Shown: positions 4,784-17,716 of the stretch, one piece after another
Numbering within the stretch: position 1 is the stretch's first letter
Layout of the letters: each line of letters starts with the position of its first letter
Virus record (IMG/VR): IMGVR_UViG_3300036913_000007
Coordinates: 1 to 27,289 of that record
From: a virus
Length of the DNA stretch: 27,289 nt
Direction: 5' to 3' (one strand)
Notes under the pieces: model-generated
Told to the model about the DNA's origin: nothing
The model's input: the letters and a program-made list of their open reading frames with translations, nothing else
Database searches by the model: none
Made by a program: the position numbers and the translations under genes

Positions 4784-4848
4784 TGTACCTGAACGGGTAT
4801 GATCCCAGATGGTAACATAAACATTGCACGGTAACGGGTATAATGTTA

Positions 4849-6375
4849 CTATCCCCTGCCGACGTAGAAACCTTCCTTCTGTCGCTGCCTTGCACCCTTA
4901 AAGTAGCGATCCTCCCAGGTCTCGGTTTCCTTCACGATCTCCCGAGGCTTCGCTATCGCAAACAGTCCGTACCGGCACTCATCCAGAGCGTGATCCTTCA
5001 CGTTTGGATCGTTCCCACGCCCCTTCAGGTCCTCCGGGCACTTCTCGTCACCTGTCGCCGCTGCCATCTCATCCAAGAGCGGCTGGTTCATCCCCTCGAA
5101 CACGAACCACCTGTCCGGCATCAGGCTCTTCCAGTTCCACCAGCCGTTGATCCGGTCGGTCGTTGCAGGTTGGAGGAATATCCCCTGAGTCTGGAACACG
5201 TCCGCGAACGTCTTGTCGCTCTCGACGATGGCGAAGCGGTCGTTCTTCGCGAAGGCATCACGCCCCGAGACTATCGTCTCCGGCATCCTACCTGCCGTCC
5301 ACTTGAAGTTGTCGATGAACTTCCTGATCCCCTCGGCGTGCTGCGAGGGCGAGAGCATATCCTGGTAGTACGTTGCGAGCCGGTAGTAGTTCCCCTTCGG
5401 GTCTGATGCGTGCAGCCCAAACGAGCACGGCGAGGAGAAGCCCGGGTCGATGGACCCCGTCAGCTTCCAGCTCGGCGGGATAGTGAAGGGCTTGACGATC
5501 TCAGTGTGTCTGTCGAATGAAGGGAACAGGTCCCCACCGAACGCATACCAATCGCCCCCCAGCAGCGCCTTCTCCATCTGCTTGCCCAGGGCTTTCATCC
5601 TGGTAGCGTAGCCAGGATCGTTCACAACGAGGACCTTGTTCTCATCCAACCAGAATGGTATAAACACTCGCGGCATGGAGCCTGCTGTGCCAGGTAGCAC
5701 CTCTGCGCCGCGCGGATCGGTCTCGGGGTCTTCAGGAGGCAGGAACCATTTCACTGAGCCCGGTTTCCAGTTGTCCACGAAGCGCTTCCTCACCCACCAC
5801 AGTCCCTCGCCTGTCGGGTTCGTCGTCGATCTCACCCTACATGGAAGTCCCGGTATCGTAGACCGAATACGAGAGAAGAGGTACAGGTACTGTGTCACAG
5901 TGAAGTGCGTCAGCTCATCGAAGCCGACGAACTGATACTCCTGTCCCTGGTGATTCTCCTTGTCGTTCTCGTTCTGCAAGTGACAGAAGAAGATTTTGCT
6001 GTCATACTCGGGGAACTCGAATGACGGTCCCGGCTCGCCCTGCCTGCCGCCGCAGAACACTCCACCGAATTGCGGGTAGTACAGCTTCGCCTCGGTAATG
6101 AGCCTGTCGAGCTGTGTACTCTCGCGTCTGAACAGTACAGCCCGGTAGCCGTGACACTGGAACGCTGCCCTGCCCAGGTCGGTATACACGAACTGAAGTC
6201 CAAGCGCATCGAGCACGAGGAACCATGACTTGCCACCGCCTGCCGATCCACCGCCCAGCACCTCGAAGGCGTCACTCCAGTATGCGGCATACTGTCCCCC
6301 CGACTGCGGGAAGGACAGCGGACGCCCTGGGTCAGCCCGATACACCTGCCCGTTGATACGAACGGCGCCTGTCAT
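4849..6375 (-). CDS. terL: Terminase large subunit (packaging ATPase-nuclease)
   Basis: This 508-residue protein is the motor that pumps DNA through the portal and cuts the concatemer. The Walker A motif GGGSAGGGKS lies at residues 41-50 and the Walker B motif FVGFDE at about 149-154. A coupling-motif-like STTNPTG follows near 184. The nuclease domain shows the first catalytic Asp in GSIDPGFSSP (~310) and a late acidic pair in KDHALDECRYG near the C-terminus. The frame is open upstream to 6462, but those 29 codons lie inside the preceding endonuclease gene in another frame. I chose the ATG at 6375, which overlaps that gene's TGA as ATGA and has a weak AGGCGG site upstream. Confidence 0.9.
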   Translation of the reverse strand: MTGAVRINGQVYRADPGRPLSFPQSGGQYAAYWSDAFEVLGGGSAGGGKSWFLVLDALGLQFVYTDLGRAAFQCHGYRAVLFRRESTQLDRLITEAKLYYPQFGGVFCGGRQGEPGPSFEFPEYDSKIFFCHLQNENDKENHQGQEYQFVGFDELTHFTVTQYLYLFSRIRSTIPGLPCRVRSTTNPTGEGLWWVRKRFVDNWKPGSVKWFLPPEDPETDPRGAEVLPGTAGSMPRVFIPFWLDENKVLVVNDPGYATRMKALGKQMEKALLGGDWYAFGGDLFPSFDRHTEIVKPFTIPPSWKLTGSIDPGFSSPCSFGLHASDPKGNYYRLATYYQDMLSPSQHAEGIRKFIDNFKWTAGRMPETIVSGRDAFAKNDRFAIVESDKTFADVFQTQGIFLQPATTDRINGWWNWKSLMPDRWFVFEGMNQPLLDEMAAATGDEKCPEDLKGRGNDPNVKDHALDECRYGLFAIAKPREIVKETETWEDRYFKGARQRQKEGFYVGRG

Positions 6376-6812
6376 CTGATCCGCCTGAACTTTTGTGCAT
6401 ACATCGCCAGCAAAAACAATCGAGCGGAACTGTCTCCCATTAGACCCAGGGCCATATTGCACTCACTACACAGGATGCCCCGGACCGTCCCGGTGACATG
6501 GTCGTGATCGACACAGGTTCGCCAGTCAAAAGGAATTTCACGCAGACACCCCGCACATCGCCCACCCTGGTCGGCATACATCTGAGTTTTATCTGCCAAT
6601 GTCAACCCATAGCGATGAATTAGATGTGCCTCGCGCCCATCCCTTCCTGTCCGTCGTCGCCACGCTTTTCGTTTCACATTGTGCTTTGGTCGATGTTTGT
6701 GTTGGTACGCCTTCACCTTGTCGGGGTTCGCTGCACACCACGCCTTTTGATAGGCACGTATACGCTCTCGGTTCCTCTCTCTCCAGACCGACAACGTCTT
6801 ACCCGTTGCCAT
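6372..6812 (-). CDS. HNH homing endonuclease, endonuclease VII-like
   Basis: This 146-residue protein has an N-terminal basic segment (residues 1-60, rich in Arg, Lys and Tyr) that probably contacts DNA. A C-terminal endonuclease VII-type treble clef follows: CAGC, then CVDHDHVTGTVRGILCSECN and ALGLMGD. The DHDH..TG..RG core and two CxxC pairs are the zinc and catalytic signature of this family. Free-standing members next to terminase genes usually act as homing endonucleases, though some assist packaging. Its ATG uses an AGGAGAAAG site within the last codons of the small terminase gene, and its stop overlaps the large terminase start. A paralogue lies at 10401-10811. Confidence 0.8.
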   Translation of the reverse strand: MATGKTLSVWRERNRERIRAYQKAWCAANPDKVKAYQHKHRPKHNVKRKAWRRRTGRDGREAHLIHRYGLTLADKTQMYADQGGRCAGCLREIPFDWRTCVDHDHVTGTVRGILCSECNMALGLMGDSSARLFLLAMYAQKFRRIR

Positions 6813-7244: not shown

Positions 7245-7263
7245 AAAAGATTTTTCAGATTTC
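7245..7263 (+). promoter_or_regulatory. AT-rich upstream promoter element shared with the 15312 promoter
   Basis: AAAAGATTTTTCAGATTTC lies two bases before the -35 box. The same 19 bases precede the minus-strand promoter at 15312-15340, at the same distance. It may be an UP element for RNA polymerase alpha subunits or a half-site for a regulator. Confidence 0.6.
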
Positions 7264-7265
7264 TC

Positions 7266-7294
7266 TTGACAAACGCATTTCGATGTTGTATATT
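7266..7294 (+). promoter_or_regulatory. Promoter of the plus-strand operon
   Basis: TTGACA (7266-7271) and TATATT (7289-7294) are separated by 17 bases, close to the sigma-70 consensus, with GG after the -10 box. The predicted start is near 7300-7301. TTGACA has a mirror copy, TGTCAA, at 7301-7306, so the promoter is bracketed by inverted hexamers. Confidence 0.8.
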
Positions 7295-7335
7295 GGATCA
7301 TGTCAAACGAGACAACAACCAAAGGAGAGCGCATC

Positions 7336-7539
7336 ATGGACACCGAGACAAAAGAGTTCGACCTCACGCACGCGATCATATCCTACGAGTCAGGTGAGAT
7401 GGAGGAGGCAGAGTTTCTGGAGCTGTTCTCCTACCTTATCAAGACCAGACTGGCCTGGACCCTCCAGGGGTGTTACGGTCGGACGGCTGCTGCCCTGATC
7501 TCGAATCGCATCATCTCCCCAGACGGCGAGGTGCTCTAA
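7336..7539 (+). CDS. Small conserved phage protein, DUF7417-like
   Basis: The 67-residue product contains IISYESGEMEEAEFLELFSYL followed by KTRLAWTLQGCYGRTAAALI. I recognise this helical pattern (acidic helix, then LAW.LQG.YGRTA) from a widespread small protein of unknown function in unrelated phages, which I believe is DUF7417. I chose the ATG at 7336, which follows AAAGGAGA at a good distance. An in-frame ATG at 7300 sits at the predicted transcription start and could only be used leaderless. It is the first gene of the only plus-strand operon, a position typical of early, host-directed genes. Its function is unknown. Confidence 0.75.
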   Translation: MDTETKEFDLTHAIISYESGEMEEAEFLELFSYLIKTRLAWTLQGCYGRTAAALISNRIISPDGEVL

Positions 7540-7847
7540 TGACTACCAACGAAGCGAAGCAAATAGTCCGCGAACATATGGACGAACTCGGTATCTCGGC
7601 CTTCTCGTGTGGTTGGGATCGTCCCCGGGTTGCTGAAGAAATGCTCTATCCCCGTCTCACCGCCAAGACGCCCCGGTATTCTGCCACATCGTATCCGCCG
7701 ATTGACGTGTTTGTCCATGCTATACGGCAACCGCTGACCTGGATCGAACTCGTGAACCGCTGCCGCGAGGAGCACGTTCGGGTATCGTTCGCTCCCCAAA
7801 TCCACGTCCGTACTCCTTACGAGAGCAAACCGGAGTACGGAGTATGA
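7539..7847 (+). CDS. Hypothetical protein, second gene of plus-strand operon
   Basis: The protein has 102 residues and its ATG shares a base with the preceding stop (TAATG), so translation is probably coupled. The N-terminus (TNEAKQIVREHMDELGISAFSCGWDR) is helical. The middle has aromatic and proline residues (PRYSATSYPPIDVFVHAI), and the end is basic, then rich in Pro and Tyr. I recognise no family. The compact helical start followed by an irregular tail is consistent with a small binding protein or inhibitor. Confidence 0.6.
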   Translation: MTTNEAKQIVREHMDELGISAFSCGWDRPRVAEEMLYPRLTAKTPRYSATSYPPIDVFVHAIRQPLTWIELVNRCREEHVRVSFAPQIHVRTPYESKPEYGV

Positions 7848-8020
7848 AAACCTACCTCTTCATTGTTGTCTACGTCAAGGGACACCGCAAGGCTTACTTT
7901 ATTGGCAGTCAGCTTCGGTGTCTCTTGAACTGGAGCGATGTGCTCCAACATTCTGGCCCCCATTCCGCAGAGTATGCAGCCAGGATGCACAACCTTTACG
8001 GATATGAGGTGATCGAATGA
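7844..8020 (+). CDS. Hypothetical 58-residue protein
   Basis: The ATG overlaps the previous TGA (ATGA). The protein begins MKTYLFIVVYVKGHRKAYF, a beta-hairpin-like start with a short hydrophobic strand, and continues with a helix around SAEYAARMHNLYGYEVIE. This strand-then-helix layout is common in very small phage proteins that bind a host partner. No known domain is recognised. The unbroken overlap with genes on both sides supports its reality despite its size. Confidence 0.55.
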   Translation: MKTYLFIVVYVKGHRKAYFIGSQLRCLLNWSDVLQHSGPHSAEYAARMHNLYGYEVIE

Positions 8021-8190
8021 CTATCGTCAAGGTAAAACTTGCTCCCGGTCAAGACTGGCGCCCTGTGTGTGTTGCCTGCGAGAAGCGAATCCATCCCCCG
8101 GATGCGATCTATGCAGACATCGACGGCAGGACCTTCATTGACTACTACCACGCATCCTGCATCCCAACAGACGAAAAGGTGCCATCATGA
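8017..8190 (+). CDS. Small putative zinc-binding protein
   Basis: This 57-residue protein starts at an ATGA overlap. It contains CVACEKRI and, about 30 residues later, YYHASC, giving a CxxC...HxxC arrangement like half of a treble-clef or LIM-type zinc finger. An acidic turn (DAIYADIDGRTF) lies between the pairs. Such fingers mediate nucleic acid or protein contacts. The assignment rests on the spacing of Cys and His residues only. Confidence 0.55.
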   Translation: MTIVKVKLAPGQDWRPVCVACEKRIHPPDAIYADIDGRTFIDYYHASCIPTDEKVPS

Positions 8191-8309
8191 ACGCCGCGAA
8201 TGATCTATTTGGATACGCAATCTGCTGGGGCGTTGCCCTGGCGCTCGTGCTCTGCATAGTCAACGCGATCTCTCAGAAACTTCACCAGCCAAAGGACCCC
8301 TGGCAATGA
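8187..8309 (+). CDS. Small single-pass membrane protein
   Basis: The product has 40 residues and starts at an ATGA overlap. Residues 7-29 (LFGYAICWGVALALVLCIVNAI) form one transmembrane segment, followed by a short polar tail (SQKLHQPKDPWQ). Single-pass proteins this small in early operons may modify the host envelope or exclude other phages, but nothing here specifies a role. Confidence 0.55.
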   Translation: MNAANDLFGYAICWGVALALVLCIVNAISQKLHQPKDPWQ

Positions 8310-8515
8310 ACCACTCTCTCACGTATCGCCTGAACGAACGTTTCGTTGCCGCCTTCCGTCCTGTCACTCACGCGAAGGCTGCTGAGTTCGGATGGAAGAC
8401 CCGCCGCAAGTGTACCGCTGGCGACCTCATCTCCACTTCCCTCGGTCTCCAATGCGGGAACTGTGGCAGCTTCACCTCGGATCACGGCGCCACCTGGTAC
8501 TCACCCAAATCATAA
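8306..8515 (+). CDS. Hypothetical protein with a CGNCG motif
   Basis: The 69-residue protein starts at an ATGA overlap. It has a basic middle (THAKAAEFGWKTRRKCTAGD) and a late CGNCGSF motif. With the earlier Cys in RRKC this could form a zinc site, though a fourth ligand is unclear (a His follows in SDHG). I recognise no family. Confidence 0.5.
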   Translation: MNHSLTYRLNERFVAAFRPVTHAKAAEFGWKTRRKCTAGDLISTSLGLQCGNCGSFTSDHGATWYSPKS

Positions 8516-8526
8516 GGAGTCAAACC

Positions 8527-8850
8527 ATGAACACTCAGCCCGGCTACGCCTATGCGGTGGGCGACATCGTTTTACTCGTCCACCAGGGAACTATCCGATA
8601 TGGCAGGATTACCGATACCACCGGCAGATCACGGGTCACGGTAGGGTGGAACCAGGTGTTACACAATAGCACCAAAGACTACACGCGGCGCTGCACCGTC
8701 CTGAACGATATCGAGGAATGGCTGGTCAACCCCAACCGGCGCTGTCTTCTTGTTGCCGCAATCCCTACCCAGCTCTACATCGCGACCTGCAACAAGCGAA
8801 TGTCCCAGGTCCGTCACCTCTTCCGCGAGGCCGTGGACACGAAGTCTTGA
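8527..8850 (+). CDS. Hypothetical protein with SH3-like N-terminal half; last gene of plus-strand operon
   Basis: The protein has 107 residues. The ATG at 8527 follows AAGGAGT with good spacing, and it is the only gene of this operon not overlapping its upstream neighbour. Residues 8-40 (YAVGDIVLLVHQGTIRYGRI...) alternate strands and turns in the manner of an SH3 or KOW-like barrel. The second half is basic and helical (RRCLLVAAIPTQLYIATCNKRM). A terminator begins 32 bases after its stop. The function is unknown. Confidence 0.6.
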   Translation: MNTQPGYAYAVGDIVLLVHQGTIRYGRITDTTGRSRVTVGWNQVLHNSTKDYTRRCTVLNDIEEWLVNPNRRCLLVAAIPTQLYIATCNKRMSQVRHLFREAVDTKS

Positions 8851-8871
8851 CGTGTCCACGCCGTACACACG

Positions 8872-9210
8872 TTACGCGAGAGACCCCGGCCTTGTCCCAG
8901 CCGGGGTTTCTGTTTTGTTGTTCTCCTGTTTGCGAGAAAAGAGATATGCAACCATCTTATCGTGGCAATAATGTGCAAGGTCCTTCCCTGTGAGAATCCG
9001 ATTCATGTAACTTACACCATTCTTGCCTGCCATGACACCCTCAAGAAATGCCCGCCGTAATTCCTTCTCGTGCTCCTCCTCCAAGCGGGTGAGTTCGGCC
9101 TCCAGGTCTTGAATCTTGAGACGGGCATCGACGAAAACGTCAAACGTATCACACTCGGAGGTCCAGCCCAAGTCGGCAAGCGTTTGCTTCTCCATCTCTT
9201 CTCGTGTCAT
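8872..9210 (-). CDS. Coiled-coil hypothetical protein
   Basis: The product has 112 residues with a strong AAAGGAGAAG site before the ATG at 9210. Residues 30-60 (LKIQDLEAELTRLEEEHEKELRRAFLEG) form a clear coiled coil, so the protein is probably oligomeric. The segment after it (MAGKNGVSYMNRILTGKDLAHYCHDK) is not recognised. Its 5' end overlaps the previous gene by 62 bases. Its last codons lie over the terminator hairpin of the convergent plus-strand operon, so the Gly/Pro-rich tail may be shaped by RNA constraints. Confidence 0.6.
   Translation of the reverse strand: MTREEMEKQTLADLGWTSECDTFDVFVDARLKIQDLEAELTRLEEEHEKELRRAFLEGVMAGKNGVSYMNRILTGKDLAHYCHDKMVAYLFSRKQENNKTETPAGTRPGSLA
8883..8925 (+). 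terminator. Intrinsic terminator of the plus-strand operon
   Basis: ACCCCGGC (8883-8890) pairs with GCCGGGGT (8900-8907) in an eight-base stem with a nine-base loop. A T-rich run with interruptions (TTCTGTTTTGTTGTT) follows. On the minus strand the hairpin is not followed by T residues, so it should act only rightward. Confidence 0.8.
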
Positions 9211-9619
9211 GGTTTCTTCTCCTTTGAATAGGGGGCGGCGTCTGGTTTGTGTCGGCTGCTGGCACCGCGATCCGGTACCCAACAACGATATCATCGAACT
9301 GCAACACAAGAAAGAACCCGTTCCCGTTCCGCACGAACTCCAGGATCGCCCGCTCGCCCTTCTGGTTCGATACAAGGAATGTTCCCCCCTCTTTGTTCTC
9401 CCCGATCAGCGTGTACACCTGTTTGTTCTGCGTCAGGATTGTCACGCTATCCGAGAGCACGATCATCACGGGCGTCTCAAACTCGTCTTCCCCGATCCCC
9501 ACCCCGTCAGGCGTGTAGGCGAAGACCTTGTCGCTCCACAGGATTTTGTTGTTCTGTGCCTGCGACAAGCCTGCCGTCAGGGTCAACACCAAGAACAGTC
9601 CCACCATCCACGTCTTCAT
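9149..9619 (-). CDS. Secreted or periplasmic hypothetical protein with signal peptide
   Basis: The product has 156 residues. It starts with a canonical signal peptide (MKTWMVGLFLVLTLTAGLSQA, then QN) with an Ala-x-Ala-like cleavage site near residue 21. The mature part is beta-rich (ILWSDKVFAYTPDGVGIG, VSNQKGERAILEFVRNGNG) and may be a small barrel. The tail after about residue 125 turns Pro- and Arg-rich where it overlaps the next gene. The ATG at 9619 follows GAGGGCA; a longer frame to 9676 lacks a site. Exported phage proteins like this may act in superinfection exclusion or lysis. No lipobox is present. It overlaps its upstream neighbour by 113 bases. Confidence 0.6.
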   Translation of the reverse strand: MKTWMVGLFLVLTLTAGLSQAQNNKILWSDKVFAYTPDGVGIGEDEFETPVMIVLSDSVTILTQNKQVYTLIGENKEGGTFLVSNQKGERAILEFVRNGNGFFLVLQFDDIVVGYRIAVPAADTNQTPPPIQRRRNHDTRRDGEANACRLGLDLRV

Positions 9620-9749
9620 AGTTGCCCTCGTTGTTTTCTGTATCGGTTGGTTGGGGTTCCCCAGCCCTGTACACATAGATCGTCACGGCAATAGCGCCGC
9701 CACACCCAGCCACACACAGCGCGATCCCACACCAAAGCAGGGCCAGCAT
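9507..9749 (-). CDS. Small membrane protein with acidic tail
   Basis: The product has 80 residues. Residues 1-27 (LALLWCGIALCVAGCGGAIAVTIYVY) form one membrane segment, followed by an acidic, Asp/Glu/Gly-rich tail. GAGG lies seven bases before the ATG at 9749; a GTG at 9755 is the alternative. The C-terminal 37 codons overlap the next gene in another frame, which makes the tail's composition hard to interpret. The pairing of a membrane-anchored protein with a following signal-peptide protein in overlapping frames resembles spanin gene pairs in layout, but the expected coiled coil and lipobox are missing. Confidence 0.5.
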   Translation of the reverse strand: MLALLWCGIALCVAGCGGAIAVTIYVYRAGEPQPTDTENNEGNYEDVDGGTVLGVDPDGRLVAGTEQQNPVERQGLRLHA

Positions 9750-9758
9750 CGTCACGCC

Positions 9759-9908
9759 TCATTGTCTTGACCTCGCGATACGGGGATGGTACCAATATCC
9801 CTTACGCTTCCCGGCCTGATACACCACAAAGATGCAGCCGGAAACAAAGCCCATCGCAAAGTACGCGAGAATCCAAAGAATCTCAATCGAGTGTTGCAGG
9901 ATCGGCAT
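9759..9908 (-). CDS. Small single-pass membrane protein
   Basis: The product has 49 residues. Residues 8-32 (EILWILAYFAMGFVSGCIFVVYQ) form a membrane segment, followed by a basic tail (AGKRKGYWYHPRIARSRQ) that should face the cytoplasm by the positive-inside rule. The start overlaps the preceding gene by 26 bases, and the stop lies nine bases before the next start. No family is recognised. Confidence 0.5.
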   Translation of the reverse strand: MPILQHSIEILWILAYFAMGFVSGCIFVVYQAGKRKGYWYHPRIARSRQ

Positions 9909-10110
9909 AGACGTTGTCTACTCCAAGCTGAAGTTTTTCGATCTTGACGCCGCGCTGCCTCAAAATCTCAATCGCGATTCCCAGGGCCTGCCGCTCGGTG
10001 CTGTCCCCGTGTTCCAGCATGGAGACCAGTTCCTTCAACCTCTCGGTCTCCATGCCGCGCATCTGAATCTCACACCGCTTTCTCGCTGAGTTATTCACCG
10101 TCGTCTTCAT
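9883..10110 (-). CDS. Small helical hypothetical protein
   Basis: The product has 75 residues, with an ATGA overlap at its start. The central region (METERLKELVSMLEHGDSTERQALGIAIEILRQRG) is two amphipathic helices with a short turn, a layout consistent with a dimeric regulatory or adaptor protein. The N-terminus is basic. No family is recognised. Confidence 0.55.
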   Translation of the reverse strand: MKTTVNNSARKRCEIQMRGMETERLKELVSMLEHGDSTERQALGIAIEILRQRGVKIEKLQLGVDNVYADPATLD

Positions 10111-10349
10111 TGCCCATCGAACCCACCCGTGGGACCGCCATCAAATTGCCCGTCGCCTCGCGGGTCCACTCCTGTTGCCCGTCGCCTCGCGGGTCCACTC
10201 CTGTAGGGAACGCAATCGCCCACATGAACATCGTCGTACTTACAGAAGTTTTGATTCCAGAAAACAAAGTGCACCCCATCGTCGTAGCGAACGGTTCCGA
10301 TCACCTCGACGATCTGTTCTCGTTCAGGTATGTAGGCTTTGTGCAACAT
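10107..10349 (-). CDS. Small hypothetical protein extended by a frameshifting 29-bp duplication
   Basis: The product has 80 residues; the ATG at 10349 follows AAAGGACG. Residues 1-49 (beta-strand-rich, with EQIVEVIGTVRYDDGVHFVFWN) look like a compact small domain. From residue 50 the frame runs through two tandem 29-base copies. Because 29 is not a multiple of three, the second copy is read in a different frame. With a single copy the frame would stop at 10141-10143. The duplication therefore adds a Gly/Asp-rich tail and brings the stop into an ATGA overlap with the next gene. The first 49 residues are likely the conserved part. Confidence 0.55.
   Translation of the reverse strand: MLHKAYIPEREQIVEVIGTVRYDDGVHFVFWNQNFCKYDDVHVGDCVPYRSGPARRRATGVDPRGDGQFDGGPTGGFDGQ
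10147..10204. repeat. Perfect 29-bp tandem duplication inside a coding region
   Basis: Positions 10147-10175 and 10176-10204 are identical. They lie near the 3' end of the gene at 10107-10349 and change its reading frame. Slipped-strand replication is the likely origin. An assembly artefact is possible but less likely, because assemblers tend to collapse rather than expand short repeats. Confidence 0.9.
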
Positions 10350-10375
10350 GGTATCCCGTCCTTTCTCTTGGTCTA

Positions 10376-10404
10376 AAGATACACTTCGGCGTAGTGAAAG
10401 TCAA
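10376..10404 (-). promoter_or_regulatory. Promoter of the leftward small-gene operon
   Basis: On the minus strand, TTGACT (10404-10399) and TATCTT (10381-10376) are separated by 17 bases. CCCCC lies directly before the -35 box, as in the structural promoters. The first three bases of TTGACT's TGA are the stop codon of the HNH gene upstream. Predicted start is near 10369, about 20 bases before the ATG at 10349. Confidence 0.7.
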
Positions 10405-10811
10405 GGGGGAAATTTCTCAAGATAACACGCAACGGCACGCGCAACCCGCGGATCATCCCGGACCATCGCCAGGGCAGTATTACAACTTCTGCACACTAAG
10501 CCCCTCACCATTCCCGTCCGGTGATCGTGGTCAACATGGCCCATGTCAGGATGATTTCTGCCGTGTACCACCAGTGAGATCGATCGACCACAAACCGCAC
10601 ACTTACCCTCTTGCGCGTCAAACATCTGTTGGCGGTCTTCACCTGAAATACCGTACCTTCGCTTTAGGTGCATAGCGGAAAGTTCGTTGGGGTGTGCAGC
10701 GTTCCACGCTCGGTTCCAAGCACGAACCTTTTCCTGATTCCGTTTCCGCCACTTGGGGCCGTAGGCACGCTGATAGGCGCGTGTCGCCTCCCTGTCAAGT
10801 CTCGCCATCAT
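10401..10811 (-). CDS. HNH homing endonuclease, endonuclease VII-like
   Basis: This 136-residue protein has the same two-part layout as the one beside terL. Residues 1-60 are basic with Arg/Trp/Tyr-rich repeats (RAYGPKWRKRNQEKVRAW). A C-terminal endonuclease VII domain follows, with CAVCG, GHVDHDHRTGMVRGLVCRSCN and TALAMVRDD. All zinc ligands and the DHDH core are present, so it should be active. Its two consecutive ATGs overlap the preceding stop codon, and its own stop is embedded in the -35 box of the following promoter. The mobile gene thus occupies a junction without separating that promoter from its operon. Confidence 0.8.
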   Translation of the reverse strand: MMARLDREATRAYQRAYGPKWRKRNQEKVRAWNRAWNAAHPNELSAMHLKRRYGISGEDRQQMFDAQEGKCAVCGRSISLVVHGRNHPDMGHVDHDHRTGMVRGLVCRSCNTALAMVRDDPRVARAVACYLEKFPP

Positions 10812-11272
10812 CGTTTCTTTCTAAATAATCCAAATGCCGCCCGTCCAATTCTCCGCCTTCCCTCATGTCTCACCGCCAGCATTAAAGCGAGAGATATGGC
10901 GCCTACCTTACCTCTACAGCGGTTCGTGTTTGCAAGAATTTCAAGTTCTTCTTGACCAAGAACCTGTCTCTCTGTTGGTTTGGTCCACACCTTAAAACAC
11001 CATCCCGCGTCTAACACGTATTTTACCTTCGATGGATCGAACAGCACCCGCTCGACCTGAGCCTCGTAGCCCAGGAGGTCGAGGAACGCATCGAAGTCAT
11101 CCTGCGAGCCAATAAGCTGTTCACCAACCACGCCAATCGTCGGCAAGAGCTGGCTGTCCCCGTTCATCTTCAGGATGAACCCGTTGGGCAGGAGCTGGTA
11201 CGAACACTGTGCCCTGAACCACTTCGCGATCTTCCGGGCTGCGCCCGACAACATTCTCTCTGGTTTCTGCAT
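10808..11272 (-). CDS. Hypothetical protein
   Basis: The product has 154 residues. The ATG at 11272 follows GGGAGACCC; the frame is open further upstream but runs into the preceding gene. Mixed alpha-beta content is suggested by strands (GFILKMNGDSQLLPTIGVVG) and helices (DDFDAFLDLLGYEAQVERVLF). The C-terminus is strongly basic (RHEGRRRIGRAAFGLFRKKR), which could bind nucleic acid. I recognise no family. It lies between a winged-helix protein and the HNH gene. Confidence 0.55.
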   Translation of the reverse strand: MQKPERMLSGAARKIAKWFRAQCSYQLLPNGFILKMNGDSQLLPTIGVVGEQLIGSQDDFDAFLDLLGYEAQVERVLFDPSKVKYVLDAGWCFKVWTKPTERQVLGQEELEILANTNRCRGKVGAISLALMLAVRHEGRRRIGRAAFGLFRKKR

Positions 11273-11280
11273 GGGTCTCC

Positions 11281-11583
11281 CTATTTGAGTGTGAAATGTT
11301 TTCGAGTTGACTTGTACAGCACAACATTCTCCCGGTACCACCTCGTGCCGCGTTCTGTGATCGTGTACCCCACCGTCGTATGATCGCGGAACCCTCCGCC
11401 ACACACACCACGAGCGATGCGCCTATCTTGCAACAACCTGCGGATCGTGGTCTTCGACACTTCGGACGACGAGTGCGTGATGATGTAGCACGGGACAGGC
11501 CCGTCTCCGCGCTCATCGTGCAGCATGAGAGCGCGAAGAAAGTCAAGTTGTAATCCAAACGAACGAAACCCCGACTCTGTCAT
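11281..11583 (-). CDS. Winged-helix DNA-binding protein
   Basis: The product has 100 residues and its ATG overlaps the previous TGA, with GAGAGAAG upstream. A helix (FGLQLDFLRALML) leads into SSSEVSKTTIRRLLQDRRIARG, which reads as helix-turn-recognition helix. The wing follows as VGYTITERGTRWYREN, a beta-hairpin typical of MarR- or PadR-like folds (YxITxxGxxWY). It probably acts as a dimeric transcription regulator of the phage. No effector domain is present. Confidence 0.65.
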   Translation of the reverse strand: MTESGFRSFGLQLDFLRALMLHDERGDGPVPCYIITHSSSEVSKTTIRRLLQDRRIARGVCGGGFRDHTTVGYTITERGTRWYRENVVLYKSTRKHFTLK

Positions 11584-11819
11584 ATCTTCTCTCTCATTGG
11601 CCTGGTGGTCTGGAGCGGAAGGAGAGAGGTGATCTCGCTGTCCGCGAACTTGTCGAGCATCCCACACGCCCCACAGAAGAATATGGGGCCGTCTGGATTA
11701 TACCCCGCTCCCATGTAGGTCCACGTCTCGGGCTTGTGGGGGCAAATTCGCTCGGTAGCTTCTGTGTGCCGCTGCGAGCGTTTCGCGGTAGCACGAGAGG
11801 AGGTCCTGGCCTGTCGCAT
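11580..11819 (-). CDS. Small putative zinc-finger protein
   Basis: The 79-residue reading contains ICPHKPETW and then FFCGACGMLDKF, a CxxH...CxxC set that fits a zinc ribbon. Its first 40 codons overlap the upstream gene in another frame and are rich in Arg, Ser and Thr, so the true start is uncertain. An unusual start nearer the first Cys is possible. The stop overlaps the next start (ATGA), which supports it being translated. Confidence 0.45.
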   Translation of the reverse strand: MRQARTSSRATAKRSQRHTEATERICPHKPETWTYMGAGYNPDGPIFFCGACGMLDKFADSEITSLLPLQTTRPMREKI

Positions 11820-12021
11820 GAATGATTTCGTCTCCCTTGAAAAACTTCACCGAGTACAGTGTCTTCCCGAACACCTTCATCGAAGATTCGGTAGAGGTGT
11901 TGTAGCCGCCCTTCTCCATGCGCGTGATGATCTGGGTGATCGCGTCCTGGGTCCGTATAGGAAGGAGGTCGAAGTCGCGGAATACCTCCGCCCAAATTTT
12001 CATATTCTCGTCTGTCAACAT
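11698..12021 (-). CDS. Hypothetical protein
   Basis: The product has 107 residues, with the ATG at 12021 overlapping the preceding stop by seven bases. The first 40 residues are helical (MKIWAEVFRDFDLLPIRTQDAITQIITRME). Strands follow (SMKVFGKTLYSVKFFKGDEIIHATG), then a helix (DLLSCYRETLAAAHRSY). This alpha-beta-alpha order resembles small proteins of unknown function in phage replication regions. No ribosome site is obvious, so coupling to the upstream gene is likely. The last 40 codons overlap the zinc-finger reading. Confidence 0.5.
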   Translation of the reverse strand: MLTDENMKIWAEVFRDFDLLPIRTQDAITQIITRMEKGGYNTSTESSMKVFGKTLYSVKFFKGDEIIHATGQDLLSCYRETLAAAHRSYRANLPPQARDVDLHGSGV

Positions 12022-12125
12022 GATGGGAACCCAAAACTGAAGAGAAGACATACGATCAGCCAGAGCACGAGAGCGGCGGCAAACATCCACCAGCTCCACA
12101 GGGGAGTATACTCAGAATGGTTCAT
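12015..12125 (-). CDS. Very small single-pass membrane protein
   Basis: The product has only 36 residues. The ATG at 12125 has a good AAAGGAACG site, located at the end of the helicase gene, with which it overlaps by 14 bases. Residues 9-30 (LWSWWMFAAALVLWLIVCLLFSF) form one membrane segment. It lies between replication genes, so it could tether replication proteins to the membrane, but this is conjecture. Confidence 0.5.
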   Translation of the reverse strand: MNHSEYTPLWSWWMFAAALVLWLIVCLLFSFGFPSC

Positions 12126-13401
12126 CGCCGTTCCTTTCGTTGTAGTCTCTCGCTGCGCCCACGATCCCGGCGCCCGATTCTTCCACCATATCCTGTGTCG
12201 GCAGGTTGTAGCGAACAGCAAACGATCCCGTGTACCCTCCACGGTTCTTTACGATCTCGCAGTTCACGGTGCGAATCTTCTCATCCGGCATACCGTTCTC
12301 CGTGTCCGTCAGGATCATCGCGGTGTAGCAGTCGTGCCCAAGCTGTGAGCCACCGTAGAAACTGTTCAGCGTCAATCGCTGCGCTCCAGCCTCCAGACGG
12401 TTCAAGCTCGACGCCGCGAGGATGTGGACGTTGTTCACGAGCGTCAGTCTGCGGATAGCCTCGGAGAGCGCCTTGATCTTCGCAAACTCATCCTGCGCCC
12501 GTCCGTTCTTGTCCACAAAGACCTGGAGGTAGTCCACCAGGATCATCTTCGCGCCCTCGTTGATCGCTGCCTTGATCCCAGCAACAAGGCTCGCTACGTT
12601 TCGGTTAAAATCAAATTGAACTTCATACTTCAGGAACTTCATCTGTTCACAAAACTTATACGCATCTTCCAGGTGTTTCCCCGCTTCGAGTTCGTCAACC
12701 GGAATGTTTGAAAACTGCCCATTCAACCGTGCGAAGATTTCGTTGACCGGCATCTCCCCCTCGATGAAGGCCGTCTCAAATCCCCGCGAGGCAGCGTTCA
12801 TCCCGATCTTGAGCATGAACGATGTCTTCCCTGATCCTGGTCCACCGCCGAGGAAGGTCATGTTCCCCAGCTTCAAACCTCCGTGGCACTTCTGGTCGAG
12901 TGTCGGAAACCCTGTCGGCACCCGGAGCATCCCGCCCTGCCCGTTCGCTTGGCAGTAGTCGAGGTACGCTGTCGCGAGCGCGGACTTTGGTACCCGCGTG
13001 TTGTCGGCCAGGATTGCAGCGTACTCGTTCGAGGCACCGTTGACCGCCTCGATGATCGCAAAGGCATCGTCTTCGGTCACGAGGCTATCGACGAGGGACT
13101 GCCGGTGCTCGAACACGTAGAACTCTGCCAGCCTCTTCGCTGCGATCCCGAGGTCCACACAGGACGATGTCTCCAGTCCCGGCAGGAAGGTCTCACCGGG
13201 AGACATGGTGTTCGTGACGTTCTCCCAGGACACCGGGGAGCCGGATGACGTGAGGAGGTGCATCGCCTCGATGGACTTCCGGCAGATTTCATCCGAGAAC
13301 ATCTTGGGCGAAAGCGCCCGAGAGTAGCGGACAAACAGGTCGCCGTTGTTTATGGCGGTCCAGACGATCTCGCGTTCGAGGTGAAGGCGGGTAGGGGTCA
13401 T
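12112..13401 (-). CDS. dnaB: Replicative DNA helicase, DnaB-like
   Basis: The 429-residue protein fits DnaB-type phage helicases, hexameric motors that unwind DNA at the fork. The N-terminal ~130 residues are helical, as in the primase-interacting domain. The RecA-like domain has Walker A (GGGPGSGKTS, 185-194), the family signature FIEGEMPVNEIFARLNG (~213-229), Walker B (MILVDYLQ, 286-293) and motif H4-like AASSLNR. The glutamate in EGEM matches the DnaB 'E-M' motif. The start ATG overlaps the upstream gene as ATGA, with GAGGAAAC before it. Next to a loader-like protein, it forms the core of the phage replication module. Confidence 0.85.
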   Translation of the reverse strand: MTPTRLHLEREIVWTAINNGDLFVRYSRALSPKMFSDEICRKSIEAMHLLTSSGSPVSWENVTNTMSPGETFLPGLETSSCVDLGIAAKRLAEFYVFEHRQSLVDSLVTEDDAFAIIEAVNGASNEYAAILADNTRVPKSALATAYLDYCQANGQGGMLRVPTGFPTLDQKCHGGLKLGNMTFLGGGPGSGKTSFMLKIGMNAASRGFETAFIEGEMPVNEIFARLNGQFSNIPVDELEAGKHLEDAYKFCEQMKFLKYEVQFDFNRNVASLVAGIKAAINEGAKMILVDYLQVFVDKNGRAQDEFAKIKALSEAIRRLTLVNNVHILAASSLNRLEAGAQRLTLNSFYGGSQLGHDCYTAMILTDTENGMPDEKIRTVNCEIVKNRGGYTGSFAVRYNLPTQDMVEESGAGIVGAARDYNERNGDEPF

Positions 13402-14075
13402 TGTTTCCTCGGCTGGTTGAGTCGTTTGTAGTTACCGTCGATCCATGTACGCAGAACCGCCGTCCAGTCTGTAATCTTTTGCCCATTACCCTTCTTCCAG
13501 CCCTGTCCGGTATATGTGTCGAAGAAGAGTCTGCACCATTCCATCAGCAGGTCGTTGTTGACGTTGTGGTGTCGCTTGTCGCGATACTGCTCAGCGTAGC
13601 TTGCAACAGCCACCTTGTCTGGGGGGACGAACCCTGGGGTGTGTGGCGCAACGCGCACCCCACTCTCTTTTCTTTCTTGTTTATATAGTTCTTCTTGTTC
13701 TCCTACCCCCGGGGGTACGCTACGAGTAGGCTGCGAGTACGCTACTCCCGAATTGTTCCATTTTGAGAAGTTTTTGAGGGTGAGTAGCGTACCCATGTGG
13801 GTAGGGTACTCCCGCTGTATCATCCCCTCGGACTCCAGCACCTGAAGCGCCTGGAGAATACGGGATTGCCCACACCGAGTCCATCGCTTCATGGTGGATA
13901 TGGCTACGACACATTGACCGGCATGAAGCTGAACTTCGTGACCACGATCATCCCTGTGTCGGTAGTCTCCCCGCTGTGCAAGAAGAAGGAACCGAGTGAA
14001 TAAAATATAGCAAACCGGGTCTTCAAGCACCTTGTTGGTGAGGACGCTGTCAAAGACCATGACGAATCGGTTCAC
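13398..14075 (-). CDS. Replication initiator / helicase-loader-like protein
   Basis: The product has 225 residues and starts with GTG at 14075 in a GTGA overlap, with GAGGAGA upstream. Residues 10-110 form a winged-helix domain: YILFTRFLLLAQRGDYRHR, then the LHAGQCVVAISTMKRW loop, QSRILQALQVLESEGMI as recognition helix, and a short wing (TLLTLKNFSKW). This layout is characteristic of phage replication initiators and DnaD-like proteins. A Pro-rich linker leads to a helical C-terminal part with LLMEWCRLFFDTYTGQGWKKGNG and WIDGNYKRL, typical of the DnaD-type or loader region. Immediate coupling to dnaB supports a loading role. Confidence 0.7.
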   Translation of the reverse strand: MNRFVMVFDSVLTNKVLEDPVCYILFTRFLLLAQRGDYRHRDDRGHEVQLHAGQCVVAISTMKRWTRCGQSRILQALQVLESEGMIQREYPTHMGTLLTLKNFSKWNNSGVAYSQPTRSVPPGVGEQEELYKQERKESGVRVAPHTPGFVPPDKVAVASYAEQYRDKRHHNVNNDLLMEWCRLFFDTYTGQGWKKGNGQKITDWTAVLRTWIDGNYKRLNQPRKQ

Positions 14076-14368
14076 TCGGCGGTCTCCTCGTTCTCGGCGG
14101 TGATCTCGATGGTATACCAGTTCGTCCTTCGATAGCGAGGTCGCTTTGTTACAGTAATCACTCCGAGTGATTCGAGGGTAGCGAGTCTTTTCCGTGCGGT
14201 GCGCCGGTCTACTCGCAACACGCGAGACAAGTATTCATCGCACACCGAGAGCGAGTCCGGCGCACGTTGCTGTGCCTCACAGATTAAGATGGTGAGAAGA
14301 ATCCAAAAAGGACACTGATATTCCTTGAAGAACTGTACTCCCTTATATTTCAAAGCTACACGCGTCAC
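14072..14368 (-). CDS. Small winged-helix DNA-binding protein
   Basis: The 98-residue protein uses a GTG start at 14368 behind a strong GGAGGAG site. The longer frame to 14587 has an Arg/Ser-rich, unnatural beginning and no site. SLSVCDEYLSRVLRVDRRTARKRLATLESLGVITVTKR is a helix-turn-helix with recognition helix and wing. The opening (VQFFKEYQCPFWILLTILICEAQQ) is an N-terminal helix packing against it. The protein resembles the N-terminal domain of the next gene's product and may be a paralogue or partner in initiation. Confidence 0.65.
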   Translation of the reverse strand: MTRVALKYKGVQFFKEYQCPFWILLTILICEAQQRAPDSLSVCDEYLSRVLRVDRRTARKRLATLESLGVITVTKRPRYRRTNWYTIEITAENEETAE

Positions 14369-14420
14369 GATGCACTCCTCCGTAGATTTCGCTGCACGAT
14401 CGGTTTGGGTTCGACGCAGA

Positions 14421-14612
14421 TCACTTCGCCTCCCACTGTTCGCCAATGCACTTGACGCGCCTGATCCCCTCGTGTTTCCCGATCTTCCCGGTGAGGAGGA
14501 AGGGAAGCTGTGCCTTCGTCGTGTCGTCGGGGACTTCGAGACGGGCGGTGCGAACATGGTTTCTGATTCCCTGGTCCATGTGAGCAAAGTAGTCCACCTC
14601 TAAAATCTTCAC
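14421..14612 (-). CDS. Small hypothetical protein
   Basis: The product has 63 residues and starts with GTG at 14612, six bases after AAAAGGAGGG. It is mixed-charge with short strands (MKILEVDYFAHMDQG, HVRTARLEVPDD) and no recognised domain. A 52-base gap separates it from the next gene, in which I see only that gene's ribosome site. Confidence 0.5.
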   Translation of the reverse strand: MKILEVDYFAHMDQGIRNHVRTARLEVPDDTTKAQLPFLLTGKIGKHEGIRRVKCIGEQWEAK

Positions 14613-14626
14613 TGTGTACCCTCCTT

Positions 14627-14818
14627 TTATCGCTTCACCATCGCAATAAAATCATCCACCTCGTCAGCGGGGTAGTATGGGTCGCACGAGTCTATCCACG
14701 GGATTTCCTCGATGCCCTCACGCTTCAGGTTGACGAGGGTCCTGCCGCCGATCCCGTTCTTGCGGAACAGGTGGGCAATATGTTGCAGACTGTACACTCG
14801 CTTCGGTTTCACGTTCAT
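14627..14818 (-). CDS. Excisionase/MerR-like small DNA-binding protein
   Basis: The product has 63 residues with an ATGA overlap at its start. RVYSLQHIAHLFRKNGIGGRTLVNLKREG is a helix-turn-helix. It is followed by IPWIDSCDPYYPADEVDDFI, in which the late YYPADEVDDFI matches the end of MerR/Xis-like winged helices (the wing, then a last helix). Such proteins bend or bind DNA as recombination directionality or replication factors. No integrase is in the window, so a lysogeny role is not implied. Confidence 0.6.
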   Translation of the reverse strand: MNVKPKRVYSLQHIAHLFRKNGIGGRTLVNLKREGIEEIPWIDSCDPYYPADEVDDFIAMVKR

Positions 14819-15039
14819 AGGGGCGCCGTCCTGTTCTCGGGAGGGATTCGATATTTCCCGTAGTAGATGTGTGGGTTGGTGGTGGACTGAACCCTGTCCA
14901 TCTGGATGTGGTAGCCGCGCTTCCTCAGGTCGTTGATCCTGGCCGCGAGACGAGTGCAGCCAAACTGGTCGATGGCCTCCAGCTGTGCGATCGTATAGCC
15001 GTGGAGAAGGTGGTTCAAGATTGCGTTCGCCTGTGTCAT
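14815..15039 (-). CDS. Helix-turn-helix protein, HTH_39-like (PF14090)
   Basis: The 74-residue protein begins with an ATGA overlap. AILNHLLHGYTIAQLEAIDQFGCTRLAARINDLRKRGYHI matches the family pattern: a first helix, a 'T..EA...FG..RLAARI.DLR.RG' recognition region and a terminal wing. The end of the protein (NPHIYYGKYRIPP) is the wing strand. Family members are common small regulators in phages and prophages. Confidence 0.75.
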   Translation of the reverse strand: MTQANAILNHLLHGYTIAQLEAIDQFGCTRLAARINDLRKRGYHIQMDRVQSTTNPHIYYGKYRIPPENRTAPL

Positions 15040-15272
15040 ACCAGCACCTCCAAATATGTGTTGACCCGCTGAGAGGTGGCGTACATCAGGATGCCGCGCA
15101 CCTCACCGTGGACCGTGATCTCCTTGCGGCCACCCCACGCCCGGGCTTCTCGGCGTGCCAGTGTTGCCGCCGTGAGTTTGTCGTCTCCGAAGAAGTACCT
15201 GGTCGCAACACAGACCAGTCCTTCGTAGTAGCGGACGATGTACCCTCGGTCACACTTGCTGTCTTTCTTCAC
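15036..15272 (-). CDS. Small hypothetical protein, first gene of the replication operon
   Basis: The product has 78 residues. The GTG at 15272 follows AAGGAGAACG. The frame is open far upstream, but the promoter at 15312-15340 lies there. The sequence alternates strands and basic patches (GYIVRYYEGLVCVATRYFFGDD, then ARREARAWGGRKEITVHGEVRG) and may bind nucleic acid. I recognise no family. As first gene after a strong promoter it should be well expressed. Confidence 0.6.
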   Translation of the reverse strand: MKKDSKCDRGYIVRYYEGLVCVATRYFFGDDKLTAATLARREARAWGGRKEITVHGEVRGILMYATSQRVNTYLEVLV

Positions 15273-15311
15273 GTCCGTTCTCCTTGTGATGGGTTGTCTG
15301 ACCTCACAACC

Positions 15312-15340
15312 AATATACGGAAAAGATTTTTCAATGTCAA
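15312..15340 (-). promoter_or_regulatory. Promoter of the leftward replication operon
   Basis: On the minus strand, TTGACA (15340-15335) and TATATT (15317-15312) are separated by 17 bases and followed by GG. The upstream 19 bases match the plus-strand promoter at 7266. Predicted start is near 15305, with 33 bases of leader before the GTG at 15272. Confidence 0.8.
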
Positions 15341-15361
15341 GTGAAATCTGAAAAATCTTTT
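15321..15361. repeat. 13-bp perfect inverted repeat spanning a promoter
   Basis: AAAAGATTTTTCA and its exact reverse complement (15321-15333 and 15349-15361) flank a 15-base core that contains the -35 box. The outer arm is the upstream element and the inner arm fills the spacer. An inverted repeat at this position is a typical repressor operator. A terminator is less likely since the stem is AT-rich. Confidence 0.75.
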
Positions 15362-15654
15362 CAGCGCAGGATGCCCTCGCGCAGCAGGAGGAGCCAGGTG
15401 CGCTCCATCGACGTATCGAACCCCATCTGCGGCATCTTGTGGCTGTCGTAATCCGAGTGACAACGGGAACACAGGAACGCAATGTAACAGTCGTGCGCCT
15501 TGATCCCCACGCCCTTACCGTGGGACATCGTGTTCGAGTGAGCCGCTACGGTGGTCCCATCGTTCCTCCCGCAGTATTGACAGGGACGATCCCTTGCAGC
15601 CTGGAGTATCTTCTTGTTTCGGTAGTGCGTCTGCTTGAAGTTCGGCTCACTCAT
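15361..15654 (-). CDS. YbcO-like recombination nuclease (DUF1364)
   Basis: This 97-residue protein opens with a basic helix (NKKILQAARDRPCQYCG), then AAHSNTMSHGKGVGIKAHDCYIAFLCSRCHSDYD. The CxxC...CxxCH zinc ligands, the AHS histidine and the GKGVGIKAHD stretch fit the YbcO/DUF1364 family. That family has an HNH-like fold and is thought to cut recombination intermediates such as D-loops. It fits its place at the end of the recombination operon. The ATG at 15654 overlaps the previous stop (ATGA). A GTG at 15666 is the alternative. Its stop codon is the first part of the following promoter's upstream element. Confidence 0.75.
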   Translation of the reverse strand: MSEPNFKQTHYRNKKILQAARDRPCQYCGRNDGTTVAAHSNTMSHGKGVGIKAHDCYIAFLCSRCHSDYDSHKMPQMGFDTSMERTWLLLLREGILR

Positions 15655-15929
15655 GTTGGCGCCCACACTTTCGAGGAGTCTACCTCAATCGCGATGCAGC
15701 CGGAGGAGAGCCGTTTATTGAGAATCGCCTGTCGTTCCAGGGAGTCCATCCATGCCAGATCGCCAGCAGTCTCCGGGAGGCGGCAAATACAGTGTCTGTG
15801 TGGACCGAGGGAAAGAATGTAGGGGTAGTAGTTGCCATGATAAAACTCTCTATCCCAATCCCGCTCCGCCTCTCTTTCGTCTGCAACGTCCCTCGTCACG
15901 CGGATCACCTTAATCTTCGGTGTACCCAT
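15651..15929 (-). CDS. Hypothetical protein
   Basis: The product has 92 residues. The ATG at 15929 follows GGGAGGGAG, within the last codons of the preceding gene, with a 20-base overlap. It begins with a beta strand (PKIKVIRVTRDV), then an acidic/basic helix (ADEREAERDWDREF). The centre contains HRHCICRLP, and the end has SSGCIAIEVDSSKVW. The His/Cys cluster could bind a metal. No family is recognised. Confidence 0.5.
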   Translation of the reverse strand: MGTPKIKVIRVTRDVADEREAERDWDREFYHGNYYPYILSLGPHRHCICRLPETAGDLAWMDSLERQAILNKRLSSGCIAIEVDSSKVWAPT

Positions 15930-16353
15930 ACTGATCTCCCTCCCAGGGTTGAAGTTGAATACCCAGCCACTCGGCATAGAGCTTGCACGTATCCACGTAG
16001 GCCCGGAACGTGTCCTTGTCCATCGAGCGGGTCTGCACGGAAACCTGCGTCTCCTCAACCTCGCCGGTCTTCTCGTTCACAACATACATGATCTCGTTCG
16101 CGAACTTCGCCTTGAGAAGAGCATGGACCTCGTCCTTCGTGTACCCGGTGTACTCCGCGATGGGCGTGACGATAGCAATCCAATAGAAGTTGTTGGCCAC
16201 CAGACTGCGCCGCTCGGTCCACGCCTGGATGCGAAGGATCACCTTCTTCCCGGGCCACCGCGCAGCGAGTATTGCCTTCAACCAGTTCCAGTCGATGTCG
16301 AGGTCTCCGTTCGGGCAGACCTCGGCATCGACAAAGAGAGTGTTGTCCATCAT
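15910..16353 (-). CDS. NinB-like recombination protein
   Basis: The product has 147 residues. ERRSLVANNFYWIAIVTPIAE corresponds well to the lambda NinB (Orf) signature R.RSL.QN..W, and the later QTRSMDKDTFRAYVDTCKLYAEWLGI corresponds to its S.T.R....F...L.....ERGV region. NinB binds single-stranded DNA and assists early recombination by displacing SSB, replacing host RecFOR functions. The N-terminus (NTLFVDAEVCPNGDLDIDW) is a strand-rich part as in Orf. Two ATGs at 16353 and 16350 overlap the previous stop; GGGGAG precedes both. Its neighbours, exonuclease, annealase and YbcO-like nuclease, fit the call. Confidence 0.6.
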   Translation of the reverse strand: MMDNTLFVDAEVCPNGDLDIDWNWLKAILAARWPGKKVILRIQAWTERRSLVANNFYWIAIVTPIAEYTGYTKDEVHALLKAKFANEIMYVVNEKTGEVEETQVSVQTRSMDKDTFRAYVDTCKLYAEWLGIQLQPWEGDQYGYTED

Positions 16354-16601: not shown

Positions 16602-17716
16602 TTCTTGCCTCCCGTGACCTGGGTGAGTTTCGCATTGAGCGAGCCGACGAGGATGTCGCGCTCCTGGTCCGTCAACATTCCCTTCTCGATCCGCCCCTTG
16701 ATCGTGAGAAGAACCGAGACCTTCGACGCTTCCTCGATCTGCGACATCAGGCTCGCAGCGGGGGAAACCGTCTTGGCCTTTTTTGCCTCGGATTTGGGCT
16801 TCGGCTCGGGCTTGGGTGCCGGTGCAGGCTCCGGGGTAGATCGTTCAACCACGGGTGGTTTCCGCTCCGGCGTGGGGGCCTCTGCCGGTGCTCCCGATCC
16901 GTCAAAGAGTGCCGGTCGGGGTGGAGGCGGAAATGCGGCCACAAACGCAGCCACAACCTTATCGAACTCGACCTGGGTCAACTCCTGCCGGTCGAGCATC
17001 GCCTTCGCCTCGCGCCCGAGGGCCTGCGCCCCAGGCTTGTCTGCCGCCCTTCCCTTCGCCTCAATCGCAATGATGGCGTTCTGGAGCCACTGTTTCGGGT
17101 CCATTTTGGTGGGAACATCTTCCTGTTTAACGACCGTCTCTGTCGAGACCACCTCGGTCTTCAGGGTGGGGGCGATAGACGTGGGGAGTGGAACCGTGAC
17201 GGCGTCCTTCAGTCCCTCGATCTCAGACTCGTCCATCATGCCGAGACCCAAGAGAGCGAGCACCGCCCGACGCTTCGCCTTTGTCATCGCCTTCATCCGG
17301 GCGTTCGCGAGGTCTTCACCCTTGAGGCCGAGTACGGCAACGCTACCGTCTTCGACGGTGAAACGTCCGTCCGGCATAGAGGCTTTGATCGTCACGGTGT
17401 AGATGTCTTCGTCCTTCTCTTTCGCAACCACGTCGTGACTGATTTTGTACTGGAGAGAGAGCTGTTGGGTGGCCCCCTTGTCCGCGTAGAGGATCAGTTT
17501 GCCTTTCAGGGTGAGTAGTTTGAAGGGTTGCGTTGCAGGGTCAAGTCCAACACGTTCGCAAAGGGCGTTGTAGTATGCAACACGCTGAGTAGGGGTCAAC
17601 TTGGACAAGTCCCCATTTAGGACCAGGGAAGCGACAACATCCGCATCCAATCCTGCGGCGGTGTTAGCCACGGCCTGATCCACCCCACGTTTCGCAATAT
17701 CTTGCACGTTTGTCAT
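16598..17716 (-). CDS. Annealase-like recombination protein (probable partner of YqaJ exonuclease)
   Basis: The product has 372 residues. Residues ~35-190 form the conserved part: LTPTQRVAYYNALCERVGLDPATQPF, LKGKLILYADKGATQQLS, then ANARMKAMTKAKRRAVLALLGLGMMDESE. This pattern recurs in phage proteins next to YqaJ exonucleases and SSB and resembles RecT/Rad52-like single-strand annealing proteins, though I cannot confirm the fold. A Pro/Ala/Glu-rich linker (~275-325) leads to a helical C-terminus. I chose the ATG at 17716, which has GGAG upstream and overlaps the preceding HNH stop (ATGA). The ATG at 17731 has no site. Confidence 0.65.
   Translation of the reverse strand: MTNVQDIAKRGVDQAVANTAAGLDADVVASLVLNGDLSKLTPTQRVAYYNALCERVGLDPATQPFKLLTLKGKLILYADKGATQQLSLQYKISHDVVAKEKDEDIYTVTIKASMPDGRFTVEDGSVAVLGLKGEDLANARMKAMTKAKRRAVLALLGLGMMDESEIEGLKDAVTVPLPTSIAPTLKTEVVSTETVVKQEDVPTKMDPKQWLQNAIIAIEAKGRAADKPGAQALGREAKAMLDRQELTQVEFDKVVAAFVAAFPPPPRPALFDGSGAPAEAPTPERKPPVVERSTPEPAPAPKPEPKPKSEAKKAKTVSPAASLMSQIEEASKVSVLLTIKGRIEKGMLTDQERDILVGSLNAKLTQVTGGKK

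Follow-up and report, generated by a model that had tools for sequence, protein, structure and literature searches.

Introduction

Phage lambda carries a distant promoter pair, PL and PR with the operators OL and OR, in which the same near-palindromic sites lie around the -35 box and one promoter points toward replication genes; the two diverge, and each has several operators overlapping its -35 and -10 boxes. In the relevant part of PMC2613000, the upstream promoter (UP) element is placed at -60 to -40, with the C-terminal domains of the RNA polymerase alpha subunit (alpha-CTD) binding a distal (-58 to -45) and a proximal (-45 to -37) subsite, and most early promoters of phage T4 match UP elements excellently, according to the corresponding part of PMC2988021. 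Perfect hairpins are, in what PMC8794818 says of them, known products of template switching. Here we describe two convergent promoters, P7266 on the plus strand and P15340 on the minus strand, in the IMG/VR virus record IMGVR_UViG_3300036913_000007, whose entire length of 27,289 bases was analysed and is called the window below, the genome itself extending farther. The reading we favour, at about an even chance, is that both are promoters for the host polymerase sharing an UP-like module, and that P15340 acquired a mirror copy of part of its upstream sequence through a template switch.

Results

Two convergent promoters share an upstream block

The 19-mer AAAAGATTTTTCAGATTTC is found exactly at 7245-7263 (plus strand) and 15361-15343 (minus strand), followed in each copy by one variable base (T or A), a C and TTGACA. 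Through the end of TTGACA the two promoters agree at 26/27 bases, that is, at 20/21 strictly 5' of the -35 box, which makes up the remaining six. Both have the -10 box TATATTGG at 17-bp spacing (7289-7294 in P7266, 15317-15312 in P15340), giving cores at 7266-7294 on the plus strand and 15312-15340 on the minus strand that are the sole perfect TTGACA-N17-TATATT sites in the window. Judged as sigma-70-type promoters (TTGACA, 16-18 bp, TATAAT-like -10), both score 11/12 with a spacer of 17. P7266 faces rightward into a DUF7417 gene and further small genes, and P15340 leftward into replication genes. The original prediction that two opposed promoters share 26 of 27 bases is thus borne out, with an exact 19-mer, the same -10 and the same spacing, and their status as promoters holds as a likeness, given that the two are the only perfect pair and that the P7266 core is kept in a relative. 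The whole-window search for the 19-mer that it had proposed returned the two known copies alone, with no third at up to three mismatches (mean expectation 0.02).

The 27-bp pair ranked first among the inverted repeats of the window, with 8063 bp between the copies. Two other explanations of the pair were weighed here. The window is rich in A/T stretches (26 clusters), and two A/T-rich promoters might resemble each other by chance, but six Markov-resampled strings peaked at 22/27, against 26/27 in the window, when the search was seeded with an exact 8-mer from the centre, and two sites stand against the 0.02 expected; on these resampling and expected-count controls we rejected chance, whose probability we take to be negligible. 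The likeness of the promoters is real and chance very unlikely. Alternatively, the pair might flank an invertible 8-kb segment, as its inverted orientation, near-identity and separation would allow. Against this, no resolvase or tyrosine recombinase was matched in any of the four records searched, all of them fragments, and the relative L014 shares the type of spacer that adjoins the 7245 copy; with no recombinase match this candidate was rejected, and we hold it to be very improbable.

The shared block occupies the usual place of an UP element

With the -35 box set at -35 to -30, the shared element spans -56 to -38. Its surroundings (-59 to -38) have an A/T fraction of 0.73 in both promoters, a value reached by 0.7% of the 22-mers of the window. 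Placed in register, the UP consensus agrees with both at 10/14 letters, a score reached at 0.06% of positions (the consensus is that of Escherichia coli and may not be the host's). As the 19-mer occupies the usual place of an UP element, no phage regulator is needed to account for it.

Among the closest described counterparts are phage early promoters with an UP element, such as those of T4; the likeness lies in the A/T-rich block, here at -56 to -38, beside a perfect -35 and a near-consensus -10. T4 early promoters have, according to PMC2988021, a TGn motif, which neither P7266 nor P15340 has. Unlike T4 early promoters, P7266 and P15340 have upstream blocks that are identical letter for letter in the 19-mer and spacers that are different.

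A relative keeps the core of P7266 without the block

Among 46 terminase relatives only L014 (71%) and L012 (66%) are close, the next standing at 33%. In L014 the position of P7266 is taken by a promoter that points away from the terminase genes and whose core is 25/31 identical from -35 to -5 and whose spacer is 12/17 identical, a value unreached in 20,000 shuffles. The module is absent from it: there is no 19-mer at up to three mismatches, and the upstream sequence is identical at 10/24 positions (shuffle P 0.12). The DNA in the module's place differs yet is A/T-rich, at 0.77 (reached by 0.2%). In the corresponding position of L012 a TTGACA is present, but TATATT does not follow at 17 bp, and the 19-mer is again absent at up to three mismatches. 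The original prediction had made the presence of the element at the same promoters of related phages a test of itself, and on the plus side the 19-mer is missing from both relatives. We call the upstream block, absent in the one of two relatives that keeps the core, a putative "portable module".

Searched for in viral contigs, the exact 19-mer occurred in nine stretches, none of them continuing into TTGACA (0/9; near-identical records of the present genome were possibly excluded), and a pattern built on the spacer family gave no matches. A search with the helicase alone gave no relatives of the P15340 region. The helicase alignment comprised five loci, of which one (L059) is the L012 contig, beginning inside the helicase, and the other four are 22-25% identical; the RecE-like exonuclease gave one locus (27%) and the RecT-like protein one (44%), and a search of genome contigs gave none for the terminase and one for the helicase (22%). 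No relative found in these searches spans the P15340 region (15300-15365). L012 also carries three tRNA genes (Met, Thr, Ala) at 7362-7659 between terminase and portal, which are absent from L013 and L014.

P15340 is a mosaic

The spacers of P7266 and P15340 agree at just 5/17 positions. The P15340 core resembles instead those of three minus-strand promoter-like sites, P24456 (24428-24456, upstream of an endolysin-like gene), P24329 (24301-24329, inside the start of the endolysin-like open reading frame (ORF)) and P19985 (19957-19985, before a small ORF ending at 19687). Its spacer agrees with theirs at 12/17 (shuffle P 1e-4), 9/17 and 10/17, respectively, and theirs agree among themselves at 13 or 14/17. 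P15340 is therefore a mosaic, with a P24456-like spacer and the upstream block of P7266. A repeat finder working without a promoter model also put 15340, 19985, 24329 and 24456 together as a single family, the other members being 62-71% identical to the first.

P15340 holds a perfect inverted repeat around its -35 box, as the original prediction had it, although at 14 bp rather than 13: GAAAAGATTTTTCA at 15320-15333, in the -35/-10 spacer, and TGAAAAATCTTTTC at 15349-15362, upstream of the -35, enclose a 15-nt loop. The longest repeat in 20,000 shuffled spacers was 11. Compared with the P24456 spacer, that of P15340 differs at positions 4, 5, 7, 8 and 9 only, being identical at 11/11 positions outside the block 4-9, and this block lifts the match to the upstream arm from 9/14 to 14/14. 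Of trials with five random changes, 1.0% had all of them within six bases, and of random 6-nt blocks made up of A and T only, 0.12% yielded the arm; 200,000 trials of five changes across the spacer gave no perfect arm, with fewer than one expected, and hence are uninformative. With P24456 as a stand-in for the ancestor, the changes are thus clustered and reproduce the other arm exactly, the mark of a template switch, and the mirror copy found in the spacer of P15340 may come from one replication slip. The likeness is to quasipalindrome mutation by template switching, in which (PMC8794818) clustered changes turn one arm into the exact mirror of the other. The difference is that two promoters of one genome are compared here, in place of ancestor and descendant.

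A regulator site or an RNA hairpin as alternatives

Each arm of the repeat is near-palindromic by itself (TGAAAA-GAT-TTTTCA). P15340 can equally be viewed as carrying this symmetric site twice, at a centre-to-centre distance of 30 bp, and P7266 has a single upstream copy of the symmetric 15-mer with two mismatches. In a refined version of the original prediction, this would be the site of a phage-coded dimeric regulator: two sites, 30 bp or about three helical turns apart, would flank the -35 box of P15340 and bring about repression, and the one upstream site would allow activation or weaker repression at P7266. The symmetry of the arms fits such a site, as do the excess of the repeat over shuffled spacers and the presence of an HTH_39 protein encoded within the P15340 operon. 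Moreover, the window has TGAAAAGATTTTTCA at three places, each of them in P7266 or P15340, and its search at up to three mismatches gave four matches (two being both strands of one place) against a mean of 0.38 expected. However, the UP consensus likewise combines an A-tract and a T-tract into a near-palindrome, the orthologous plus promoter lacks the 19-mer in both relatives, and the spacer copy can be explained by mutation through a template switch. The same four records, all fragments, gave no match to HTH_3 (CI/Cro-type), integrase or resolvase families, although at first look the HTH_3 search had a single candidate below threshold in each of G000 and G001. The comparison with lambda, whose CI and Cro have no HTH_3 match in these fragments, is limited further in that P7266 and P15340 converge, and in that two sites at P15340 and one upstream of P7266 do not amount to several overlapping operators at each promoter. 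Candidate DNA-binding proteins are present, and nothing links them to the element. We consider a regulator site possible but doubtful, and the idea of one regulator with opposite effects at the two promoters, while possible as a part of it, found no positive support, given the UP-like place, the relatives without the 19-mer and the explanation by template switching. A combined reading, in which one template switch mirrored a regulator site into the spacer of the replication promoter, with the regulator aiding the plus promoter and blocking the replication promoter, appears unlikely.

Alternatively, the repeat might work at the RNA level, as a hairpin of read-through transcripts ending the HNH nuclease gene (DUF968/YbcO type; 15361-15666, minus strand), where it would serve 3' protection, processing or attenuation. 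The minus-strand RNA can form a moderately stable stem of 15 pairs (-17.1 kcal/mol, z -2.3, 7/200 shuffles equally good), and the stop codon of that gene (15363-15361) reaches into a repeat arm, its last base being also the first of the shared element. Set against this, the stem is A/U-rich without a following U run, Rfam gave no match in the window, and a hairpin would leave the module at P7266 unexplained; we regard this account as decidedly unlikely. An intrinsic terminator at the P15340 repeat was rejected for want of a U run; our terminator scan covers loops of 3-8 nt only, and a hairpin with a 15-nt loop could not appear in it.

A model for the two promoters

The account needing the fewest assumptions is that of host-polymerase promoters with a shared UP-like module. 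In this model, both would be strong promoters read by the main (sigma-70-type) RNA polymerase of the host, and the shared 19-20 nt would be a portable A/T-rich upstream module serving as an UP element, gripped by the alpha-CTDs and so raising promoter strength. The small-gene operon on the plus strand and the replication operon on the minus strand would both fire strongly and early. The module would have been copied from one promoter onto the unlike core of the other, after which a single template-switch event could have turned a weak chance inverted repeat into the perfect 14-bp repeat in the P15340 spacer, and the mirror copy was perhaps later adopted as an operator.

Several points weigh against this model. 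UP elements are degenerate, and function alone therefore leaves the 20/21 identity unexplained, recent copying being needed as an extra. Most of the 26 A/T-rich clusters (at least 16/22) in the window are intragenic, and non-genic DNA has an A/T fraction of 0.49 compared with 0.44 for the window, so that a whole-window background flatters the A/T and UP tests. In register, P19985, P24329 and L012 reach UP scores of just 3/14, and the L012 sequence upstream is 64% A/T beside its missing TATATT. As to the template switch, the ancestral spacer is inferred from a sister promoter in the same genome that was picked as the nearest; P24329 differs from P15340 further at positions 13 and 16, and P19985 at 15 and 16. 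Selection for an operator could also produce an identical spacer block.

Genes led by the two promoters and their setting

Gene content includes a large terminase (PF03237), a P22-type portal (PF16510, E 1e-65), DnaB helicase, a DnaD-like loader, SSB, a RecE-like exonuclease, NinB and an endolysin-like protein. Window positions 1-5285 are matched at 99.94% identity by record L013, which runs on beyond the left end. The DNA of 11000-16000 had no match in a phage collection, and protein searches against phages gave none above 60% identity among the best 20 each of 1369 terminase and 526 helicase records.

P7266 leads small genes, as predicted, the first being DUF7417 (7336-7539, plus strand; Pfam PF24192, E 7e-22). 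That P15340 leads replication genes was confirmed as well. On the minus strand, its first gene (15036-15272) matched no family in family searches, and is followed by an HTH_39 winged-helix protein (14815-15039; PF14090, E 6e-15), the foremost candidate regulator; a 63-aa protein that is possibly a small HTH (14627-14818; no family, low-confidence model with pLDDT 67); a weakly matched replication O-like or winged-helix protein (14072-14587; phrog_678, E 6e-4); the DnaD-like helicase loader (13398-14075; phrog_2514, E 2e-10); and the DnaB-like replicative helicase (12112-13401; PF03796, E 1e-23). The protein at 11281 matched no family and gave a low-confidence model (pLDDT 61). Within the DnaD-like gene, a 22-nt imperfect inverted repeat (86%) at 13702-13805 is a possible origin feature.

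Elsewhere, HNH_3 endonuclease genes at 17713-18099 and 19025-19429 flank the RecE-like exonuclease and have a 141-nt stretch in common at 78%; they are likely mobile endonuclease copies. Endonuclease_7 (PF02945) genes lie at 6372-6812 and 10401-10811, one of them placed between the large terminase, whose start it overlaps, and the small ORF upstream. A perfect 29-bp tandem duplication (10146-10203) falls in the later part of an 80-aa ORF (10107-10349), and a 693-aa ORF (21090-23171) resembles a calcineurin-like phosphoesterase (weakly, below the Pfam cut-off) split by a Hint/intein-type domain (PF13403, E 9e-9).

Other promoter-like sites in the window

At up to two mismatches, TTGACA-N17-TATATT occurs six times in the window and the reversed control pattern not once; the same test gave 1 against 0 in the L014 record, 1 against 1 in G002 and none in G001. 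P24456, P24329 and P19985 were found by both the repeat family and this pattern. Just 0.45 of the sequence upstream of P24329 is A/T, and the first ATG of the ORF after P19985 (19950) is just 6 nt beyond the -10, so that either this ORF would be leaderless or P19985 is not its promoter. Given the in-ORF position without A/T-rich upstream sequence of the one and the close ATG of the other, P24329 and P19985 may not be working promoters. At 24301-24344, where the endolysin-like ORF codes for its hydrophobic, signal-peptide-like start, lies a near copy (spacer 14/17) of the promoter found 127 bp farther upstream.

A further group has CCCC before the -35: 2613, 4776, 10404 and also 24456. These minus-strand sites are, the last aside, at 2585-2613 (upstream of a 271-aa ORF; repeat family), 4748-4776 (upstream of the P22-type portal gene; repeat family) and 10376-10404 (CCCCC-TTGACT-N17-TATCTT; pattern). 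The group pattern, drawn up only after its sites had been seen, had five matches in the window (two being one site) against a mean of 0.05 and a maximum of 1 in 100 Markov strings. Minus-strand sites that have a 17-bp spacer, and whose TTGA is preceded by CCCC or CCCCG, lie before portal, lysis and other genes and possibly form a second promoter class. The window thus contains a set of similar promoter-like sites, newly found here.

Discussion

The sites described here make up a first promoter map of a phage that is little known and whose portal is of the P22 type. P7266 and P15340 would be a neat case of promoters evolving by modules, with cores and upstream blocks moving independently of each other. 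If the mirror copy in P15340 binds a regulator, it would show how a single replication error can create an operator, and if one template switch did mirror a regulator site into the replication promoter, a phage regulatory switch would have been born from one such error.

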